Source: Sulfurimonas crateris
GTDB lineage: Bacteria; Campylobacterota; Campylobacteria; Campylobacterales; Sulfurimonadaceae
Reading direction: 5' to 3'
NCBI RefSeq assembly: GCF_005217605.1
Contig: NZ_SZPX01000003.1
Span: 124,001 to 188,000, forward strand
DNA length: 64,000 nucleotides
Below the pieces are notes generated by a model, which saw only the letters and a program-made list of their open reading frames with translations, was not told the origin of the DNA and searched no databases. Every line of letters starts with the position of its first letter. The first letter of the stretch is position 1. Made by a program: the position numbers and the translations under genes. Of this stretch, positions 4,659 to 36,180 are shown one piece after another.

Positions 4659-6242
4659 TTAGTCGGAAGTACACGATAATCTCATTCTTAATAAAATTAA
4701 CGATTCCGTGTTATCAACTTTTTCAATTATATGTTTACAAGATGAATTTTTAATATAATACATGTCATAAAGAGATAAAAAAATATTGTTTGACTTTTCG
4801 TAATCAAACCATTTAAATCCATTATCTGAAATTATAAAAAGTATCTCTCCAGTTATTAATTTTTCGTAACTAAACTTTCCTAAATTCATAGGATGTCTTG
4901 CTAGCCACCCTGAATTTAAGATATTGAATTTATTTGCATTAAAGATTCCATCTTCATTAAATAAAATTCCTGACTGCAAATATGGTATCCCCAATCTCCC
5001 TGGAAAATAAATTCCTGGCACAAGTATTTTATTGTATTTTTCTGAAATATATGTAAGTTCATCTAAGACGGCTGTTTGTTTAGCCATATAAATATCTTTA
5101 TTTACGTGCCTATTTAGACAAACTTTTCCAATTTTAAACAGTATAAATCCTACTAAAATTGAATACAAAATCATTATTAAGAATCTTTTTCTTCCCTTAA
5201 CAACTTGAATTTGATTGAATAAAAGTATTGAGTGCCCAAGAATAAGAGGTAAAGAGACTCTATCAACATCCCTTGCCAAAAAACTTAAAATGATCAAAAA
5301 ATATACGGAGATATTAATTAATAAATTCTTTCCTGATTTATTTAAAGCGTATAACAATAATAATAAAAATATATTAAAGAATAAAATATATTTATAATCC
5401 TTATTAGTAAATATTTTTTTTAACTTATCTATACTTGTACTCATTAAAGACTTTAAATAAACACTATCTCTAGAACAAGCAGCACTTATGACATTTTCAT
5501 TTGGCATAAGCTCCGTATCAACATTGTACCATCTCAATAAAATATGTTTTTCTGAGTTTGATAAATCATTTGTATTATTAAAGCCTCTATAATCTTGAAT
5601 AGTTCCTCTTGCCGTATTATATTCATACCATTCTTGATATGGCTGTTGCATTTTTAAAAATATATGAATCAAAATTATACCCATAGGAATAAGTAATAAA
5701 AAATACTTTTTATTAAATGTAGGTCTAAAAAGTAAAAAATTTAAAAATATAAATGGAATAATGGACGTAACTATACCTGTTCTCAACAAAGATGCTATTG
5801 ATAGAAATATAATAAATAAGAAAAAAGACCTCTTTAAAATAAATAAACTTGCGATTATATAAACTACTGTCAACGCAGTTATAGAAAAATAAATAAAATT
5901 AATAGCTATAAACACAACAAATAAGCCATATAGCCAGATTTTTTCTTGATATCTTTTCATAAAATAATGAAAAACAATAATTAAAAATAAATTAAGAAAT
6001 AAAATAAAAATACTGTACCATTGAAGATGTGGTAAAAAAGTGTATAGTTCCCCTAAAAGCAAAGAGGATAGATAATGAAGTATAAGAGTATGTGGTTCAT
6101 TGGCTCTTAATAAGTTAAGCAATGCAATATCATCGTTTGTAGTTGTTCTAACATATCCATTTAAACCTAGATATAAAATACAAAAGGCACCAGTAATGGA
6201 TATAATGAAATAATAATTAGAATTTAAAATATTTTTAACCAT
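4659..6242 (-). CDS. Multi-pass membrane protein, GT-C-like glycosyltransferase candidate
   Basis: This 527-residue protein has about ten or more hydrophobic helices, with the last ~130 residues predicted outside the membrane. The first external loop contains TTNDDIALLNLLRANEPH, and a di-acidic pair in that loop is the usual catalytic position of GT-C transferases, which use polyprenyl-phosphate sugars in the periplasm. The neighbouring gene encodes another protein of the same general plan with no spacing between the two. The base composition is strikingly AT-rich even for this window. A Wzy-type polymerase or an O-antigen-modifying transferase is possible. No specific family could be assigned. 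Confidence 0.55.
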   Translation of the reverse strand: MVKNILNSNYYFIISITGAFCILYLGLNGYVRTTTNDDIALLNLLRANEPHTLILHYLSSLLLGELYTFLPHLQWYSIFILFLNLFLIIVFHYFMKRYQEKIWLYGLFVVFIAINFIYFSITALTVVYIIASLFILKRSFFLFIIFLSIASLLRTGIVTSIIPFIFLNFLLFRPTFNKKYFLLLIPMGIILIHIFLKMQQPYQEWYEYNTARGTIQDYRGFNNTNDLSNSEKHILLRWYNVDTELMPNENVISAACSRDSVYLKSLMSTSIDKLKKIFTNKDYKYILFFNIFLLLLLYALNKSGKNLLINISVYFLIILSFLARDVDRVSLPLILGHSILLFNQIQVVKGRKRFLIMILYSILVGFILFKIGKVCLNRHVNKDIYMAKQTAVLDELTYISEKYNKILVPGIYFPGRLGIPYLQSGILFNEDGIFNANKFNILNSGWLARHPMNLGKFSYEKLITGEILFIISDNGFKWFDYEKSNNIFLSLYDMYYIKNSSCKHIIEKVDNTESLILLRMRLSCTSD

Positions 6243-8855
6243 CTAGTCATTAACCTTTTGCAGGAATTTTAAATCAATCAAAACAACTTGCAAATCATTT
6301 TTCCACCCAATTGTTTCTAACTCTAAACTATATTGATTTCCACTAAGTCCATGTAGCTCTATTTCTATATTTTCAACATCAAAATCATTTATCTGAAATT
6401 GTTTTGTTACTATATTGCTATGTTCATCCTTGATATCAATCTTTAAAACACCAGAGTCATTTTTAGTCTTAAACTTATAGTGCTTCATAGCTTTTAAACT
6501 TAAAATTAAATTTTTTTTGTTTTCAATCGAAATGTTGTCATAAATTATTTTTGTGCCATTTCTAATCGCAATAGAATTTTTTGGGTAATATTTATCTCTA
6601 ATCAGTTGAAATGGTTTTATCCATAAATTTGTCATATATTTATTATGACTTATTTTGCTGAATTGTTTAAATGTATATTGTGTCTCTTTTTTTGATTTTT
6701 CTTGAATATCATCATATTTACAATCTTTTATTGAGTCATCAATGTTTAATAAAAAGTATGCCTTTCCAATAAATAGACTTGAATTTTTACATTCTCTTAA
6801 AGCTTCTGCAAACTTTACAAACTGATTATCTGGGATATACTTTGGATAAAGCAAGTGAGTTGTTTTTGTTTTTACTAACATATCTTTAAAAGTTTCAAAA
6901 TCTTTAAATAAATATGGTCTTTGAGATGCTATGTGTGGACCAGACTCATAGGTTGCATTTAGTAAATATAGCTCCTGTTCTGATCCATGCCCTATAACTT
7001 TTTTAAAGCTATTGATTTCATGTAAATGTTCATAAATATCTATAGCACCAGCACCTTCTAATTTAGTTAGTCTTATACTTTCTTTGTTAAATGGATTTTT
7101 AAAAAAATCTAAATCCAGCTTATTTGTACCATACGACCAACCATGATTTGTTATAAAAAGTACAATAATATTTACAGCTACTATAGGAAGCAAGAACCTA
7201 TAGTAATCAACAATTTTTTGATTTAAAGAAATTAACACAAAAGTAATGATAATAGGAATTAAGTGATAATTTCCATCGCCACCAACTGCAACTTTTTTTC
7301 CAAATAAAACATATAAAACAAACAAAAATATAAAAATATAAAGAATCAAAATTATTTTAGATGCATCTATTCTTGGTTTATACTTTAAAATATAAAACAA
7401 AAACAAGCCAAAAACAAGTGTATAAATATTGGAAATCCATGCAAAGATCATCCTTGTTTCTGTGGGATAGAAATTGTATTTTATAAAAAGTTCGTAGAGT
7501 GAATAAATATCTTTTGCACTACGTCTATTTATTTTATCATATAACTCATTGTAATTAAATCCTAAGTATTCATATATCGATCCTACCATTGATATATTTT
7601 CACTAAGAGATGTAAATGGTATACCAACAATACTAACTGTGCGATAAGTTACTAACAAAAATGTCAATGTTAAAATAAAATAGATAAAGTAGTGTAGTTT
7701 ATGTACATCATTAACAAGGGATTTTAAGTTTTTCAAAAAATAGCCTACAAAAAAAACTCCTAACACAGAAATATAAGGCACTACTGATAATTTAGTTGTT
7801 AAGGAAAGCACTAACAATAGCAAAGACAAAATAAAATATGAAAGTAGCTTTGTTTCACTATACTTTAAGAAAAAAATTACGCTCATAAATACAATAAATG
7901 AACTAAACAAATCAGGCTTTGCAAGAATTGAGGAGTTAGCAACCGCAGGGATAGTTATAATCATAAATATAACAAAAAGTGCACTGCTTGTACTTAGTTT
8001 TGTTTTCAAAAATTCATAAATAGCAAGAATAAAAAATATTAAAACAAAAACTGTAAACATTCTTCCTAAAGCAAAACTGTCAAAAAATTCTAATGGATAA
8101 ATAACTATTTCATAAAGTTTTGGATAAAAACTTACCCAATGCTGTAACATTAAAATTGGTTCAAAGAAACTTCCATTTTGATTTAAAACTTCTGCACCTC
8201 TTAGTGAATACCAAAACTCATCATAGCTTGGATTTGATGAAGACTGAACAATCAAAATAAAAAATAAAATTAAAAAGATTGAAATTAAAAAGGGGTACTT
8301 TATTTTTTTACTATTGTAATGCTTGATCAAAAAACTTGAAATCAAAAAAAACAAATTGTGTTGTTTAAAAAATAAAGCAATTAAAAATATTAAGCAAATA
8401 GAAACAACAAGCACATTGAGAGTAGCCATGGAAAAAAGTGACAATCCCAATAAATACAGCACCCATAAACAAATTCCAATTAAAAAGATTAATGAGTACT
8501 TGTACACTATATTCGCTTTCGACAAAGCTACAGAACCTAAAAAATACAAACTACTAACATAAAAAAAATCGATCAAAAAAATAAGATCAACATTATGTCT
8601 TCTCAAATACAAAGCAGTAAGTACAAACAAAACTATGCTAAAAAATAGTTTTGCTTTATGAAAAAATTTTAAAGGTATATAAATAAGAAGAAAAAAAAAC
8701 AATAATTCCACTGTTCCTTCTACGACAGCTGGTTGCTTAATATGCCATCCAAAAGGTCCATTTACTAGAAAATCATATAAAGGAATAGTTGCAAAAACAC
8801 ATGCTAAGCTAAAAAATAAAATATTTGATATGTTTTTCATAAAAAAACTGCGCAT
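6243..8855 (-). CDS. Large GT39/PMT-like membrane glycosyltransferase
   Basis: This 870-residue protein has many membrane helices in its first ~570 residues and a soluble C-terminal part of about 290 residues, rich in beta-type sequence and possibly sugar-binding. After a long N-terminal helical region, SSNPSYDEFWYSLRGAEVLN (near residue 207) places an acidic pair in an external loop, followed by a long amphipathic stretch, and AKPDLFSSFIVFMSVIFFLKY resembles the PMT/ArnT-type GT-C core. Such enzymes transfer a sugar from a polyprenyl phosphate donor in the periplasm. It abuts the second membrane protein gene. The ATG at 8855 gives MRSFFMKN; an internal ATG at 8840 is also possible. Confidence 0.6.
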   Translation of the reverse strand: MRSFFMKNISNILFFSLACVFATIPLYDFLVNGPFGWHIKQPAVVEGTVELLFFFLLIYIPLKFFHKAKLFFSIVLFVLTALYLRRHNVDLIFLIDFFYVSSLYFLGSVALSKANIVYKYSLIFLIGICLWVLYLLGLSLFSMATLNVLVVSICLIFLIALFFKQHNLFFLISSFLIKHYNSKKIKYPFLISIFLILFFILIVQSSSNPSYDEFWYSLRGAEVLNQNGSFFEPILMLQHWVSFYPKLYEIVIYPLEFFDSFALGRMFTVFVLIFFILAIYEFLKTKLSTSSALFVIFMIITIPAVANSSILAKPDLFSSFIVFMSVIFFLKYSETKLLSYFILSLLLLVLSLTTKLSVVPYISVLGVFFVGYFLKNLKSLVNDVHKLHYFIYFILTLTFLLVTYRTVSIVGIPFTSLSENISMVGSIYEYLGFNYNELYDKINRRSAKDIYSLYELFIKYNFYPTETRMIFAWISNIYTLVFGLFLFYILKYKPRIDASKIILILYIFIFLFVLYVLFGKKVAVGGDGNYHLIPIIITFVLISLNQKIVDYYRFLLPIVAVNIIVLFITNHGWSYGTNKLDLDFFKNPFNKESIRLTKLEGAGAIDIYEHLHEINSFKKVIGHGSEQELYLLNATYESGPHIASQRPYLFKDFETFKDMLVKTKTTHLLYPKYIPDNQFVKFAEALRECKNSSLFIGKAYFLLNIDDSIKDCKYDDIQEKSKKETQYTFKQFSKISHNKYMTNLWIKPFQLIRDKYYPKNSIAIRNGTKIIYDNISIENKKNLILSLKAMKHYKFKTKNDSGVLKIDIKDEHSNIVTKQFQINDFDVENIEIELHGLSGNQYSLELETIGWKNDLQVVLIDLKFLQKVND

Positions 8856-28641: not shown

Positions 28642-29874
28642 TCAGGAATCTGAATTAAAAATATCTCTGGTATAGACTTTATCTTTGACATCCATAATGC
28701 TCTCACTCAGTCTGTTAGCGACTATTACGTCGCTTATCTTTTTAAACTCATCCAAATCTTTTATAACTCTTGAGTTAAAAAAGTCATCCTCTTGACATGC
28801 AGGTTCATAGATGACGACCTCTATTCCTTTTGCTTTTATACGCTTCATAATTCCCTGGATAGCGGAGCTTCTGAAGTTGTCCGAGCCTGTTTTCATGACA
28901 AGTCTGTATATCCCAACTGTACCAGTTGGAGTTGATGGTTGATGGTTAATTGTTGATAGTTTCTTTATGATTGAATCTGCTATAAAATCTTTTCTTGTGC
29001 TGTTTGATTTTACGATCGCCTCTATCATATTTGACGGCACGTCTGCGTAGTTGGCAAGTAGCTGTTTTGTATCTTTTGGAAGACAGTATCCGCCATATCC
29101 GAAGCTCGGGTTGTTGTAGTGCGTGCCGATGCGCGGGTCAAGTCCTACTCCCTCTATGATCTGCTTTGTGTCAAGCCCGTGTGTCTGCGCATAACTATCT
29201 AACTCGTTAAAGTATGCAACTCTCATGGCAAGATAGGTGTTTGCAAAAAGTTTTATCGCTTCGGCTTCGGTAGAGTCTGTAAATAAAATAGCTATATCTT
29301 TTTTTATGGCTCCCTCTGCCAAAAGAGAAGCAAATATCTCCGCTCTTTTACTCTTCTCTCCGACTATGATGCGGCTCGGGTAGAGGTTATCGTGAAGTGC
29401 CAGACCCTCTCTTAAAAACTCAGGCGAGAAGATGATGTTATCCGTTTTAAATTTCTCTTTTAGGCTCTTTACATAACCTACGGGAATAGTTGATTTTATA
29501 ACCATCACGGCGTTTGGGTTTATGCTTATAACATCGGCTATGACGTATTCTATAGATTTTGTGTTGAAATAGTTTGTCTGTGGGTCATAATCTGTAGGAG
29601 TAGCTATGATGACATAGTCGGCATCTCTGTAAGCTGCCTCTTTATCGAGCGTTGCAGTGAAGCTTCCAGCTTCATTGGTTGATGGTTGATGGTTGATGGT
29701 TAATAGTTTTGGAAGATACTCTTCTATATCTTTATCTTCTATTGGTGAAATACCTTTATTGAGCATCTCCACTTTCTCAGGAATGATGTCAAGCGCGACC
29801 ACTTCGTTGTGCTGTGCCAAAAGTATACCGTTACTTAGTCCGACGTATCCGGTTCCCGCTATTGCTATTTTCAC
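28642..29874 (-). CDS. ugd: UDP-glucose 6-dehydrogenase with repeat-derived insertions
   Basis: This 410-residue enzyme oxidises UDP-glucose to UDP-glucuronate. It has [47 protein letters not shown], the catalytic-cysteine motif [20 protein letters not shown] and the C-terminal YEP motif. Repeat-encoded stretches [15 protein letters not shown] (before [11 protein letters not shown]) and [14 protein letters not shown] (before the C-terminal domain) fall in surface loops between conserved blocks. The core motifs are intact. It overlaps the 60-residue gene upstream by four bases. Confidence 0.93.
28931..28958 (-). repeat. Heptanucleotide array G, four units, inside ugd
   Basis: Plus-strand units GTTGATG, GTTGATG, GTTAATT, GTTGATA encode [10 protein letters not shown], at the junction leading into the C-terminal UDP-binding domain of Ugd. 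Confidence 0.9.
29678..29705 (-). repeat. Heptanucleotide array H, four units, inside ugd
   Basis: Plus-strand units GTTGATG, GTTGATG, GTTGATG, GTTAATA encode LTINHQPST in the N-terminal Rossmann domain. The flank carries the palindrome GAAGCTTC at 29659-29666, also found beside array C. Confidence 0.9.
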
Positions 29875-30053
29875 GCGTTTTTTCTCCTATAATTTTCTGG
29901 TGTTTGTTCTGTTATAGTTCCGTCGGGCAATTGAAAATATATTCTCCCATTTTTACTATAAACATTTGCAACACCGTTTTTTAAACTCTTTTTTTGTGCT
30001 TCTTTTACAGCTTTTGATGCTACTTTTAGAATATTTTTTGCTAATTCACTCAC
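29871..30053 (-). CDS. Small basic protein coupled to the zeta-like kinase
   Basis: This 60-residue protein ([19 protein letters not shown]...) has a helical, lysine-rich N-terminal half and a beta-like C-terminal half with [20 protein letters not shown]. It overlaps the kinase gene upstream by four bases and ugd by four bases. I do not recognise a family. The coupling to a zeta-like P-loop protein suggests a two-gene module in which this is the partner, although zeta antitoxins more often precede the toxin. Confidence 0.55.
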
Positions 30054-30610
30054 TTTAAATCCTTTGTAAAGAGAATGAAATACTCATTATCTAATACTTC
30101 ATTGTCTTCTGCGATTAATTCATAATTGTCATCACCATTGAAAAACAACATCCAATTATCAACCATATCTTTATATGTATTCCAAAACAAATTTTTACTT
30201 CTTGAATATCGTCTTTTGATATCATCTTGTGGCACATCATGACCACCATTTAAAACTCTATTCTTTACCCTTAAAATATTTTCAGTATCTGTCTCTAGAA
30301 ATAGATAAATTAGAACTACTTTAAAGCCTTTTTCTTTGGCCTTATTCACCACATCTTTAAGATACTTACCAGATAAAGTTGATTCTATCATAAATGATTT
30401 ATCACCATTTAGATTTATCTCAAGCTGTCTAAAAAATTCTTTACCAGCTTTTACTTTATACTTTGAAATATCATTAGGATCAAATACTTTTGCTATCTCA
30501 TCTGCATTTATAAAATGAAGATCATTTAAAGCAGTATAACTTAATGCGAAAGTAGTTTTACCACTTCCATTTGCTCCTGCAATTATATAAAGAGTCTTAT
30601 GATTATTCAT
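30050..30610 (-). CDS. Zeta-toxin-like P-loop kinase
   Basis: This 186-residue protein has Walker A LYIIAGANGSGKTTFALSY (residues 7-25), FINADEIAKVFDPND, FMIESTLSGKYLKDVV and VLIYLFLETDTENILRVKNR. This is the architecture of the zeta-toxin/UDP-GlcNAc kinase-like group also seen in many orphan ABC/ATPase annotations. True zeta toxins phosphorylate UDP-N-acetylglucosamine, which would be notable beside sugar-nucleotide genes, but the substrate here is unknown. It is the first gene of the minus-strand polysaccharide array and has a good promoter upstream. Confidence 0.7.
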   Translation of the reverse strand: MNNHKTLYIIAGANGSGKTTFALSYTALNDLHFINADEIAKVFDPNDISKYKVKAGKEFFRQLEINLNGDKSFMIESTLSGKYLKDVVNKAKEKGFKVVLIYLFLETDTENILRVKNRVLNGGHDVPQDDIKRRYSRSKNLFWNTYKDMVDNWMLFFNGDDNYELIAEDNEVLDNEYFILFTKDLK

Positions 30611-33198: not shown

Positions 33199-33909
33199 AT
33201 GAGTAAGAAATTGGGGAATCTCTTATTTGTAAAAGTTGGAAAAGTCACAAAGAACAAAAAGCTGACAAGCGAAAAAGAGTTTGAGTCGGGTATAAAAAAG
33301 TATCCCGTCGCTAGTGCTTTTATGACAAAAACAGGCTTTAGAGGGGATGAAGTAGCAGACCTTATCCATCACGGCGGGGAGACCAAAGCGGTGCTATTTT
33401 TCTCGACAAAGACGTACGAGAAACTAAACAGACTAAGCGGCAACAGTTTTACATACGACGATGTCGCACACTACGGAGAGAATCTTTTAGTCGACTCCAT
33501 TGATGAGTCGGATATCTGCGTAGGTGATATTTTAAAGGTCGGAGATGCGATATTTGAAGTCTCTCAGCCAAGACAGCCATGCTGGAAACTCTCCGCAAAC
33601 ACCGCAACCAAGCCGATAACAAGCATTATTTACAACAACGGTCTTACAGGATGGTACGCAAGAGTTATACAAGAGGGAGAGCTGAAAAAAGGCGACGATA
33701 TTGAGCTTATAAAAAGAGCCTATCCGGAGCTTAGCATCGAGGCTTTAAACAGGGTCATAGTCGATCCCTTTAGTGACAAAGAAGTGACGCTTCAAGCCAT
33801 AAAATGTCCGGTTTTAGGAGAGCAGTTCAGAGATTCGCTAAAGGGAAGAGCAAAGCTGAATGACCCGAAAAACGAGCCATTTTGGTATCATAGCGAACCA
33901 GAGGAGTAG
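33199..33909 (+). CDS. MOSC domain protein, YiiM-like
   Basis: This 236-residue protein has a MOSC core: FRGDEVADLIHHGGETKAV, YGENLLVDSIDESDICVGD and the cysteine-bearing SQPRQPCWKLSANT, followed by a helical C-terminal extension. MOSC proteins bind molybdenum cofactor; YiiM reduces N-hydroxylated compounds. An AGGGGG site precedes the start, 17 bases after tmk. It ends 11 bases before the stop of the convergent globin gene. Confidence 0.88.
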   Translation: MSKKLGNLLFVKVGKVTKNKKLTSEKEFESGIKKYPVASAFMTKTGFRGDEVADLIHHGGETKAVLFFSTKTYEKLNRLSGNSFTYDDVAHYGENLLVDSIDESDICVGDILKVGDAIFEVSQPRQPCWKLSANTATKPITSIIYNNGLTGWYARVIQEGELKKGDDIELIKRAYPELSIEALNRVIVDPFSDKEVTLQAIKCPVLGEQFRDSLKGRAKLNDPKNEPFWYHSEPEE

Positions 33910-33920
33910 GTGTCTCTGTG

Positions 33921-34856
33921 CTAACTCGAAAAGGCACTATCCGCTTTATTGGTACTGACCCCGACTACTCTTTTGGCACCAACAAGCCAATATGCGACTG
34001 CAAGGGCTACTATTACTGCGCCTATTATCAAAAGCTCTTTGCCGCTCTCTGATGATAAAGAGTAGATAAGAACCTTACGAATAAGTGCCGCCATAGCAAG
34101 CATTATAAACGCTCCGATAGCGAACCCTTTGCCTTGAAGATGATTTATCTCTTCATGTATAAGCTCTATCGCCGCCCAAAGAACGAGTAGACTTCCAAGG
34201 ACTGTCAATATCCCCTTCTCTATCCCAATGTCTGTAAAAAAGAGTAGATAGATGTCGTACCCAAAAAGCCCGATTGCAAAAAACGCCACTAAAGCCAGAG
34301 AGCCCGCAAGAAAGAAATTTACGTAAGAGTTGAACCTTTTAAGTCCTGATAAGATTGTTTTTTCAACCTTAGAGAGTGAGAGGAACTTTCCGAGCTCCTC
34401 TTCTCTGTATGAACTGGTCAATGTGTCCAGATTTATATCTATGATCTTCTCTACCGCTTCTATCTCCATCATGCTTCGTCTGTCGTTCTCGCAGTTTTCG
34501 TGAAGATTTTTTATGATAAAAGTCCTAACAAAAGTAAAAGCAGAGTTTACGTAGTGTGTAGGAAGCCCGATGCGCACATGAATTTCGCCTATTTTGTAGA
34601 GATATGTAAAATATTCAAGATCATATTTTCCGCAAAAAAGATTTACAAACCATGCCTTTATCTTCTCTCTGTGATAATCAATAATCTTTTGATTCTTTAG
34701 AAACTTCGCAGTTGACCCAAACCCCCAGATATAGTCGTAAAACTCCTCTATAAACCTGTTTGAGAGTTCCTCCATTCTTGGTTGAAGCTCTTTTAATATA
34801 AGAGCCTCCTCTTTTGTGAACTTATAGTGCTCTTTTAAGCTCTGGTGCTGCTGCAT
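33921..34856 (-). CDS. Sensor-globin fused to a PsiE-like membrane domain
   Basis: The protein has about 311 residues. Residues ~1-155 resemble a protoglobin sensor domain: helical, with FIEEFYDYIWGF and the haem-ligand region YKIGEIHVRIGLPTHYVNSA, in which the first His is the likely proximal ligand. Residues ~175-300 hold four membrane helices of PsiE type, with LLVLWAAIELIHEEINH and GAFIMLAMAALIRKVLIY. I place the start at the ATG at 34856, with AAGGG seven bases upstream, rather than seven codons earlier. A membrane-bound oxygen or nitric oxide sensor or reservoir is plausible. No output enzyme domain is present. Confidence 0.75.
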   Translation of the reverse strand: MQQHQSLKEHYKFTKEEALILKELQPRMEELSNRFIEEFYDYIWGFGSTAKFLKNQKIIDYHREKIKAWFVNLFCGKYDLEYFTYLYKIGEIHVRIGLPTHYVNSAFTFVRTFIIKNLHENCENDRRSMMEIEAVEKIIDINLDTLTSSYREEELGKFLSLSKVEKTILSGLKRFNSYVNFFLAGSLALVAFFAIGLFGYDIYLLFFTDIGIEKGILTVLGSLLVLWAAIELIHEEINHLQGKGFAIGAFIMLAMAALIRKVLIYSLSSESGKELLIIGAVIVALAVAYWLVGAKRVVGVSTNKADSAFSS

Positions 34857-34886
34857 ATTTCGCCCTTTTAAATCCAAATGTGATGA

Positions 34887-34892
34887 ATTATA
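34887..34892 (-). promoter_or_regulatory. -10 box of the globin-fusion gene
   Basis: The minus strand reads TTTAGTTATAATTC, with a perfect TATAAT about 30 bases before the chosen start. Confidence 0.55.
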
Positions 34893-34940
34893 ACTAAATA
34901 AAAGGTAAAAATGGTATCCTTTCAGTTAAAAAAACTTAAC

Positions 34941-34946
34941 TACAAT
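34941..34946 (+). promoter_or_regulatory. -10 box candidate for hisS
   Basis: TACAAT in the context AACTTAACTACAATTTTC lies 23 bases upstream of the hisS start. It drives the plus-strand hisS gene divergently from the globin gene. No clear -35 is seen. Confidence 0.45.
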
Positions 34947-34968
34947 TTTCAACGATATAAGGACAGAG

Positions 34969-36180
34969 ATGATCGCTTCACTTAGGGGAATGAATGATAT
35001 TTTAAGCGAGGATTATGAGAGATTTACATATTTCATAGAGAGCGCTTCAGAGATCGCTAAAAAATATGGTTTTCACTTTATTGAGACCCCTCTTTTGGAA
35101 GAGACCGCCCTTTTTAAGCGTTCTGTCGGCGAATCAAGCGACATTGTCGGCAAAGAGATGTACCAGTTCATAGACAAAGGCGAAAACGACGTCTGTCTTC
35201 GTCCTGAGGGAACGGCTGGGGTTGTTCGTGCGTTTATACAAAAAAAGCTAGACCGTGCAGGCGGAATTCACCGTTTTTTCTACCACGGAGCGATGTTTAG
35301 ATATGAGAGACCGCAAAAAGGAAGACTAAGACAGTTCCACCAATTTGGCGTAGAGAGCTTTGGAGTTGAGAGCGTTTATGAAGATGCCGCTATGATTATG
35401 ATGGTAAGCGATATTTTAAACAAGCTTGGAATCGGCTATAGACTGCAGCTCAACTCTCTTGGTTGCAGCGAGTGTATGCCTCAGTATAAAGACTCACTTG
35501 TGGACTATATCAGAAAGTGCCAAGACGGCATCTGCATCGACTGCCAAAGAAGAGTAGATACAAACCCGATAAGAGTGCTTGACTGTAAGAACGGCTCATG
35601 CCAAGAGCTCTACGTAGAGGCTCCAAAGATCACGCAAAACCTCTGTGCATCATGCAGCAGTGATTTTTCTGCACTGCAGAAGATATTGGATGATAACTCC
35701 ATCAAGTACGAAGTAGATTCAAACCTTGTTAGAGGACTTGACTACTACTCAAAGACCGCATTTGAGTTTGTAAGTGATGAGATAGGAAGCCAAAGCGCGA
35801 TCGCAGGCGGAGGACGCTATGACAGACTTGTCGAGTTTTTGGACGGACGCCCTACTCCTGCCGTGGGCTTTGCTATGGGCATCGAGAGACTTATGGAGCT
35901 TATAAAGATGCCAGAGTCCAAAAAAGAGGGCTACTACATGGGCGCAATGGATGATGAAGCATTGCAGAGCGTCATAAAGATTGCTCATCAAAAGAGAAAA
36001 ACAGACACCGTTGTGATGGACTACAAAACTAAAAACCTTAAAAACCATCTAAAAGCGGCAGATAAGGCAAATGCAAAATATTGTGCAGTAATAGGATCAG
36101 ACGAGATGAAAAACAAAACCATCTGGGTAAAGAACCTCGAAGACAAAACTGAAAATACTATACCGATAGCGGAGTTTTAA
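34969..36180 (+). CDS. hisS: Histidyl-tRNA synthetase
   Basis: This 403-residue class II synthetase has motif 2 FRYERPQKGRLRQFHQFGVE, RPEGTAGVVRAF, the histidine-specific VRGLDYYSKTAFEF and AIAGGGRYDRLVEFL, and motif 3 AVGFAMGIERLMEL. The anticodon-binding domain occupies the C-terminal part. A CxxC-type cysteine group lies in the insertion domain. It overlaps the next gene by one base (TAATG). Confidence 0.96.
   Translation: MIASLRGMNDILSEDYERFTYFIESASEIAKKYGFHFIETPLLEETALFKRSVGESSDIVGKEMYQFIDKGENDVCLRPEGTAGVVRAFIQKKLDRAGGIHRFFYHGAMFRYERPQKGRLRQFHQFGVESFGVESVYEDAAMIMMVSDILNKLGIGYRLQLNSLGCSECMPQYKDSLVDYIRKCQDGICIDCQRRVDTNPIRVLDCKNGSCQELYVEAPKITQNLCASCSSDFSALQKILDDNSIKYEVDSNLVRGLDYYSKTAFEFVSDEIGSQSAIAGGGRYDRLVEFLDGRPTPAVGFAMGIERLMELIKMPESKKEGYYMGAMDDEALQSVIKIAHQKRKTDTVVMDYKTKNLKNHLKAADKANAKYCAVIGSDEMKNKTIWVKNLEDKTENTIPIAEF

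Follow-up and report, generated by a model that had tools for sequence, protein, structure and literature searches.

Two described systems bear on the protein considered here. The globin-coupled sensor of Geobacter sulfurreducens (GsGCS) has a C-terminal part that we take to be a transmembrane domain without known function, and the ferrous-NO form of its globin is said, from work by Pesce in 2009, to lose the proximal histidine bond. Campylobacter carries a single-domain globin, Cgb, together with its Crp/Fnr regulator, NssR. The Campylobacter globin scavenges NO according to PMC1457004, and the heme of GsGCS is bis-histidyl via His66(E11) according to PMC4476040. The PsiE membrane family is widespread, and we found no mechanism assigned to it; globin-PsiE sensors have a crystallized heme sensor domain without a known output. 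On the globin-PsiE fusion itself, we found nothing in the open-access literature.

The window, by which we mean the whole 64,000-nucleotide stretch of Sulfurimonas crateris DNA that was analyzed, encodes such a fusion on its minus strand (table 1). This gene is a member of the already known GsGCS-type family of globin-PsiE proteins, and represents its E7-histidine subtype. Our analysis adds to that family a split between E7 and E11 distal histidines by clade, and a set of NO- and O2-related gene neighborhoods in Campylobacterota. An alternative TTG start is present upstream of the ATG, at 34877; homologs align from the ATG. The gene converges with a MOSC-domain gene, their stops separated by 11 bases, with the thymidylate kinase gene (tmk) next, and is divergent from hisS. 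In the close relative L002, an HPP membrane gene (5902-6447) lies between the fusion gene and the MOSC gene, the latter identified by clustering; it is absent from the window at 33909-33921. The whole source genome holds one Protoglobin match. Elsewhere in the window, an AAA/zeta-toxin-like kinase gene (30050-30610, minus strand; Pfam Zeta_toxin, 4.9e-07) is followed by an open reading frame (ORF) of 60 amino acids (29871-30053, minus strand), and the two are perhaps a toxin-antitoxin-like pair.

Table 1. Features of the globin-PsiE gene and its upstream region in the window.
Feature	Coordinates	Strand	Details
Globin-PsiE fusion CDS	33921..34856	-	311 aa; ATG at 34856, stop at 33921; GsGCS-type globin-coupled sensor
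Protoglobin domain, residues 3-154	34395..34850	-	Pfam PF11563, 1.2e-26; 2w31, E 5.6e-39
His62, predicted distal heme residue at E7 (E11 = Ile66)	34671..34673	-	Kept in 47/47 rows with a residue there
His93, predicted proximal heme ligand (F8)	34578..34580	-	Ungapped alignment with GsGCS His93 (2w31)
Helical linker, residues 155-178	34323..34394	-	Near-continuous with globin helix H and first membrane helix
PsiE domain, residues 179-293, four predicted membrane helices	33978..34322	-	Pfam PF06146, 6.6e-22
Loop between helices 2 and 3, residues 236-244, predicted cytoplasmic (topology inferred)	34125..34151	-	Gly242 marks fused clade
Intergenic region, divergent, between fusion gene and histidyl-tRNA synthetase gene (34969-36180, +)	34857..34968		

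The first-pass annotation had described an N-terminal globin of the globin-coupled-sensor type with a plausible heme histidine, four PsiE-like helices, and no signaling domain. Each of these points is borne out. The Protoglobin domain scores 94 bits against a Pfam cut-off of 25, and the closest solved structure by sequence is 2w31, the globin domain of GsGCS, which aligns without gaps over residues 4-159; other Protein Data Bank matches are 1or4, 5ohe, 4zvb, and 7o0i. The PsiE match reaches 78.4 bits against a gathering cut-off of 23.9 and covers nearly the whole Pfam model, and hydropathy peaks agree with a model of the transmembrane part in placing four membrane helices there. No third Pfam domain scores above cut-off in the 311-residue protein, and methyl-accepting, cyclase, and kinase domains are absent by the same search. 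The NCBIfam equivalog for E. coli PsiE (NF002767) stays below threshold, at 11.6 bits against a cut-off of 222.

The full-length AlphaFold model is of moderate quality (mean pLDDT 68.5; pTM 0.47), with residues 96-100, close to the proximal histidine, below a pLDDT of 50. Two model helices, 125-160 and 163-207, span the end of the globin, the linker, and the first membrane helix. Modeled alone, the membrane part (residues 157-299) reaches a pLDDT of 81 and has four helices, the first one long. If the heme lies in the cytoplasm, the loop between helices 2 and 3 would be cytoplasmic as well. A missing heme pocket had been named as the observation that would count against a globin; the globin part of the model instead finds its best structural match in 2w31 (Z 15.6, rmsd 2.5 Å, 138 residues). 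For the PsiE part, Foldseek returned no match at an E value of 0.001 or better, which does not show a new fold. VIA comparisons gave Z scores of about 8-10 alike for DgkA, VTC, Orai, and BAR chains, and we claim no fold relationship from them.

Among GTDB species genomes, 48 loci encode a relative of the protein, mostly at full length and with 70-94% identity; the ORF and its fusion are therefore not a product of chance. The 48 loci are mostly from Sulfurimonas, Sulfurovum, and other Campylobacterota, with one (L046) from a genome labeled Desulfuromonas. Over 39 members, column identity averages 82%, with invariant residues in both domains; L047 and L048 are partial, and L043 and L045 have frames broken by stops and contributed readable pieces only. 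The proposed survey of Campylobacterota found the fusion in 3 of 150 genomes of an even phylum sample, any match in 6 of 150, and, in the genus of the window, the fusion in two of eight sampled genomes. A plasmid search returned eight records, none of them a fusion: the matches lay in the globin half throughout, and no record spanned more than 39% of the query. In the genome G153, labeled Sulfuricurvum, we observed a second protoglobin (L079, 934-2007, minus strand) that ends, by our reading, in a GGDEF (diguanylate cyclase) domain. PsiE matches in L053 and L055 were rejected as spurious: their frames are about 430-460 amino acids long, and L053 resembles, in our reading, an MFS transporter. 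Other Campylobacterota gave weak PsiE matches.

Fusions with the same domain order in one reading frame extend well beyond this clade, to 24 distant fusions and to all 30 loci read in the order of G180, which we call Geobacter-like by its similarity to 2w31. In that order, the GsGCS globin finds a match in 104 of 141 genomes (in 101 with an E value below 1e-20), and PsiE lies behind the globin at each of the 30 loci. The first-pass annotation had presented the architecture as an exception; it was right that the usual output domain is lacking, and incomplete in that the architecture is no oddity, as the GsGCS type occurs in most genomes of this order. PsiE matches were found in 73 of 198 genomes from the phylum of the genome labeled Desulfuromonas, and the 50 loci read there include 25 one-frame fusions, one of them in the genome of L046 itself. 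The fusion at L046 is 70% identical and has a flavodiiron gene directly upstream; transfer or mis-binning may be the cause. In one copy, at L138 (G251), an in-frame stop splits the frame, which may reflect gene decay or an error in the sequence.

The PsiE domains of the fusions (59 rows) make up a single clade, which a branch with 100/100 support separates from 13 stand-alone PsiE proteins. Note that this tree holds 25 Campylobacterota rows, and that the row of the window was left out while its 93%-identical relative L001 was kept in. All 24 distant fusions have Trp227 and Gly242, which the nine aligned stand-alone PsiE proteins lack, whereas Glu231 and Arg260 occur in all the fused and stand-alone domains compared, with Gly221 likewise common to both. 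From these alignments, the Gly242 loop, which changed along with fusion, is a candidate coupling site.

We compared the heme pocket across 103 fusions, comprising the window, the 48 loci of its clade, the 24 distant fusions, and the 30 Geobacter-like ones. The F8 histidine and Trp69 are each present in 103 of 103, with His93 kept in all 47 rows of the window's alignment that have a residue there. The fusion protein is predicted to bind heme. The distal histidine is far more variable: 60 fusions have it at E7 only, 32 at E11 only, 1 at both, and 10 at neither. We label His62 as E7 because it lies one turn before position 66, His66 of GsGCS being named E11 in PMC4476040. The E7 histidine is universal in the window's clade (49 members), whereas 26 of the 30 Geobacter-like fusions have a distal histidine at E11 only. 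On the membrane-domain tree, the distal position needs just four changes, and it is therefore a lineage pattern and not the result of many independent events; as read from the sequences, the distal histidine shifted by one helical turn in few events. Eleven of the 24 distant fusions likewise have the E7 histidine, so that E7 marks a subtype of GsGCS-type fusions and not an exclusion from them. The E7 histidine is a putative iron ligand.

The neighborhood analysis as a whole leaves out the fused ORFs L111, L129, and L130. For Campylobacterota, ORFs up to five on each side of the 48 loci were clustered into 269 families and 31 gene-order groups. Without any pre-selection, the families found in most gene-order groups were Crp/Fnr regulators (four groups), single-domain globins (four), HPP proteins (three), thioredoxin-like proteins (three), and short-chain dehydrogenases (SDR; three, an identity by our own reading), in a ranking that counts all its nor-containing loci as a single group. 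For a family found in four of the 31 groups, the binomial probability is 1.5e-5, given a single copy in 2100 genes; this figure depends on an assumed copy number and gene count and is uncorrected for the number of families. The HPP and superoxide dismutase (SOD) neighbors mostly represent one syntenic group of Sulfurimonas. A SOD gene lies within two genes of the fusion in six loci (L001, L003, L005, L007, L009, and L034), a hemerythrin gene follows it in four (L026, L029, L038, and L040), and a single-domain globin gene is nearby in L023, L039, L044, and L045. Single cases include cytochrome bd subunit genes upstream in L011 and a flavodiiron protein gene upstream in L046.

Nitric oxide reductase (nor) genes occur near the fusion in four arrangements. 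In L018, a nor cluster immediately precedes the fusion and shares its strand, with NorB, a VWA NorD-like protein, NorQ, and a COX3-like protein encoded upstream; L028 and L030 have the same gene order, the NorB of L030 lying outside the stretch read, and in all three a small gene (COX4-like in L018) separates cluster and fusion. The identities of these genes come from matches of NorB to 3o0r (2e-197) and of NorC to 3o0r_C (3e-55), and from the CbbQ_C and VWA domains for NorQ and NorD. In L042, NorC and NorB are encoded downstream of the fusion; in L044, the nor genes are on the other strand, and an Rrf2 regulator, a single-domain globin, and an HPP gene surround the fusion. The fourth arrangement, in G058, was found post hoc, after looking for NorB: on one side are genes for a thioredoxin-like protein, a multiheme cytochrome c (by our reading), cytochrome d1, NorB, and NorC, the last three at a distance of a few genes. 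On the other side, a di-heme cytochrome c peroxidase gene (L230, 5974-7044, +) stops 3 bases short of the fusion ORF, which suggests that these two genes form one operon. No NO gene adjoins the window's own copy, whose neighbors are hisS, MOSC, and tmk; the source genome encodes, away from the fusion locus, a NorC-like protein (by our reading), a cytochrome d1, and, on another contig, a NorB (38% identity to that of L018, E 3.6e-88; best Protein Data Bank match 3o0r).

At the level of whole genomes, NorB (E ≤ 1e-30) was detected in 24 of the 150 sampled genomes, comprising all three fusion carriers and 21 of 147 noncarriers (Fisher test, P = 0.004), the three carriers being few and related. 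Single-domain globins were found in 35 of the 150 genomes, and in none of the three carriers. When 14 seeded families were considered, at least one occurred within three genes of the fusion at 25 of 48 loci, in comparison to 3 of 565 background centers, and none did at the other 23; without HPP, SOD, and Crp/Fnr, the counts were 13 of 48 and 0 of 565. These enrichments are biased, as the foreground itself supplied the seed families and two genomes made up the background; we do not use them as proof and prefer the ranking without pre-selection. A scan for promoter boxes, with consensus sequences that we assumed for NssR, FNR, and Dnr, was rejected as a source of support: boxes of these types were found in 2 of 49 upstream regions, in comparison to a shuffle mean of 2.4. 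A one-mismatch NssR-type site upstream of the fusion gene in L026 was the sole case of its kind, and the window's own intergenic region has no box of the three types with up to one mismatch.

Outside Campylobacterota, the neighbors are ordinary. Longer stretches were taken from the Geobacter-like order; 14 of the 20 had a usable center, and genes for a MoxR-like ATPase and ferrochelatase and hyp genes recur there by our reading. Frequent flanking genes in the other distant group are ndk and rlmN (again our reading). NorB was not found near the fusion in the 14 Geobacter-like stretches or in the other distant group, and the link to NO is therefore not general. Matches to the NorQ profile in these groups were set aside as weak and, in our reading, directed at a general MoxR-like ATPase. 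The first-pass annotation had proposed that the globin links O2 or NO to transport or to respiration; the Campylobacterota neighborhoods support the respiratory half of this proposal, and transport is without support here.

We propose, with a confidence evenly balanced between right and wrong, that the protein is a membrane-embedded one-component heme gas sensor of the GsGCS type, with NO as the first and O2 as the second candidate signal in Campylobacterota, and with its output within the membrane module. The cytoplasmic globin would bind heme via His93, with His62 (E7) on the distal side. Gas binding, most likely of NO in Campylobacterota and with O2 as second choice, would alter heme coordination, and this change may travel along helix H and the linker, as a near-continuous helix, to the first membrane helix and into the four-helix PsiE module. 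The output, we infer, would be a changed membrane module, read by a membrane or cytoplasmic partner belonging to the NO/O2 respiratory or detoxification machinery, and a second messenger would not be used. Alternatively, the heme iron could switch between a bis-histidyl hexacoordinate and a pentacoordinate or O2-bound state and so report oxygen or redox conditions to the membrane, the NO genes reflecting shared respiratory regulation. This account is unlikely, though far from negligible. GsGCS, the closest solved relative, is bis-histidyl through E11 (PMC4476040), a histidine is present at E7 or E11 in 93 of 103 fusions, SOD and cytochrome bd genes are among the neighbors, and Geobacter-like genomes have the fusion without a nearby NorB; however, O2 sensing alone would not lead one to expect the four arrangements with NorB-type clusters close to the fusion, and 10 of 103 fusions have neither distal histidine.

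It is improbable that the protein is a membrane-tethered NO/O2 scavenger or dioxygenase, with a globin that destroys NO and with PsiE helices that anchor it and perhaps give electrons. Detoxification genes do adjoin the fusion, and the four loci with a single-domain globin gene nearby fit this account; but the protein is without a reductase domain, the residues of the loop and of helices 2 and 3 are more conserved than an anchor requires, and NO reductase and single-domain globins already provide the activity where they co-occur. A heme-gated channel or transporter, with PsiE itself as the effector and ion or solute flux altered upon gas binding by the globin, is very improbable. Conserved charged residues within the membrane helices (Glu231, Arg260, and Lys261) would suit a channel, as would a weak resemblance of the transmembrane model to Orai (Foldseek E 0.24; VIA Z 9.1, rmsd 3.5 Å, 123 residues), which stands among equal rows from many unrelated proteins. 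Against this, the Foldseek search was empty at its threshold, Z scores near 9 are within noise for helical bundles, with DgkA and VTC chains scoring equal or higher, and transport genes, HPP perhaps excepted, are not recurrent beside the fusion. It is likewise decidedly improbable, in a broader form of the idea, that the globin directly switches an effector in the membrane, be it PsiE acting as channel or transporter or a partner protein, for instance NO reductase or cytochrome bd. If such a gas-gated effector were real, NO or O2 would control membrane energetics in one protein, without a second messenger or phosphorelay.

The one-component gas sensor that we favor has consequences of its own. 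The Campylobacterota neighborhoods provide a testable signal, NO, and candidate partners, namely NO reductase, cytochrome bd, the single-domain globin, and the Crp/Fnr regulator. If the membrane module does respond to heme ligation, the protein would be a direct gas-to-membrane switch in bacteria of oxic-anoxic, nitrate-rich interfaces.

Among known systems, HemAT, DosC, AfGcHK, and RsbR-like sensors have the same Protoglobin-type N-terminal sensor as the window's protein. Their outputs are methyl-accepting, cyclase, kinase, or STAS domains, whereas the window's protein has a four-helix membrane domain instead. From the PsiE family (PF06146, including E. coli PsiE), it shares Glu231, Arg260, and Gly221, and differs from the stand-alone members, as does its whole fused clade, in having both Trp227 and Gly242. 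The Campylobacter single-domain globin and its Crp/Fnr regulator are separate proteins there, and both types recur as neighbors of the fusion. The closest comparison remains GsGCS, represented by its globin domain (2w31), which is the best match of the window's globin in both sequence and structure and has the same proximal His93. GsGCS has Leu62 and a distal His66 (E11) where the window's protein has His62 (E7) and Ile66, and in its close relatives from the Geobacter-like order the globin is followed by the same PsiE domain.
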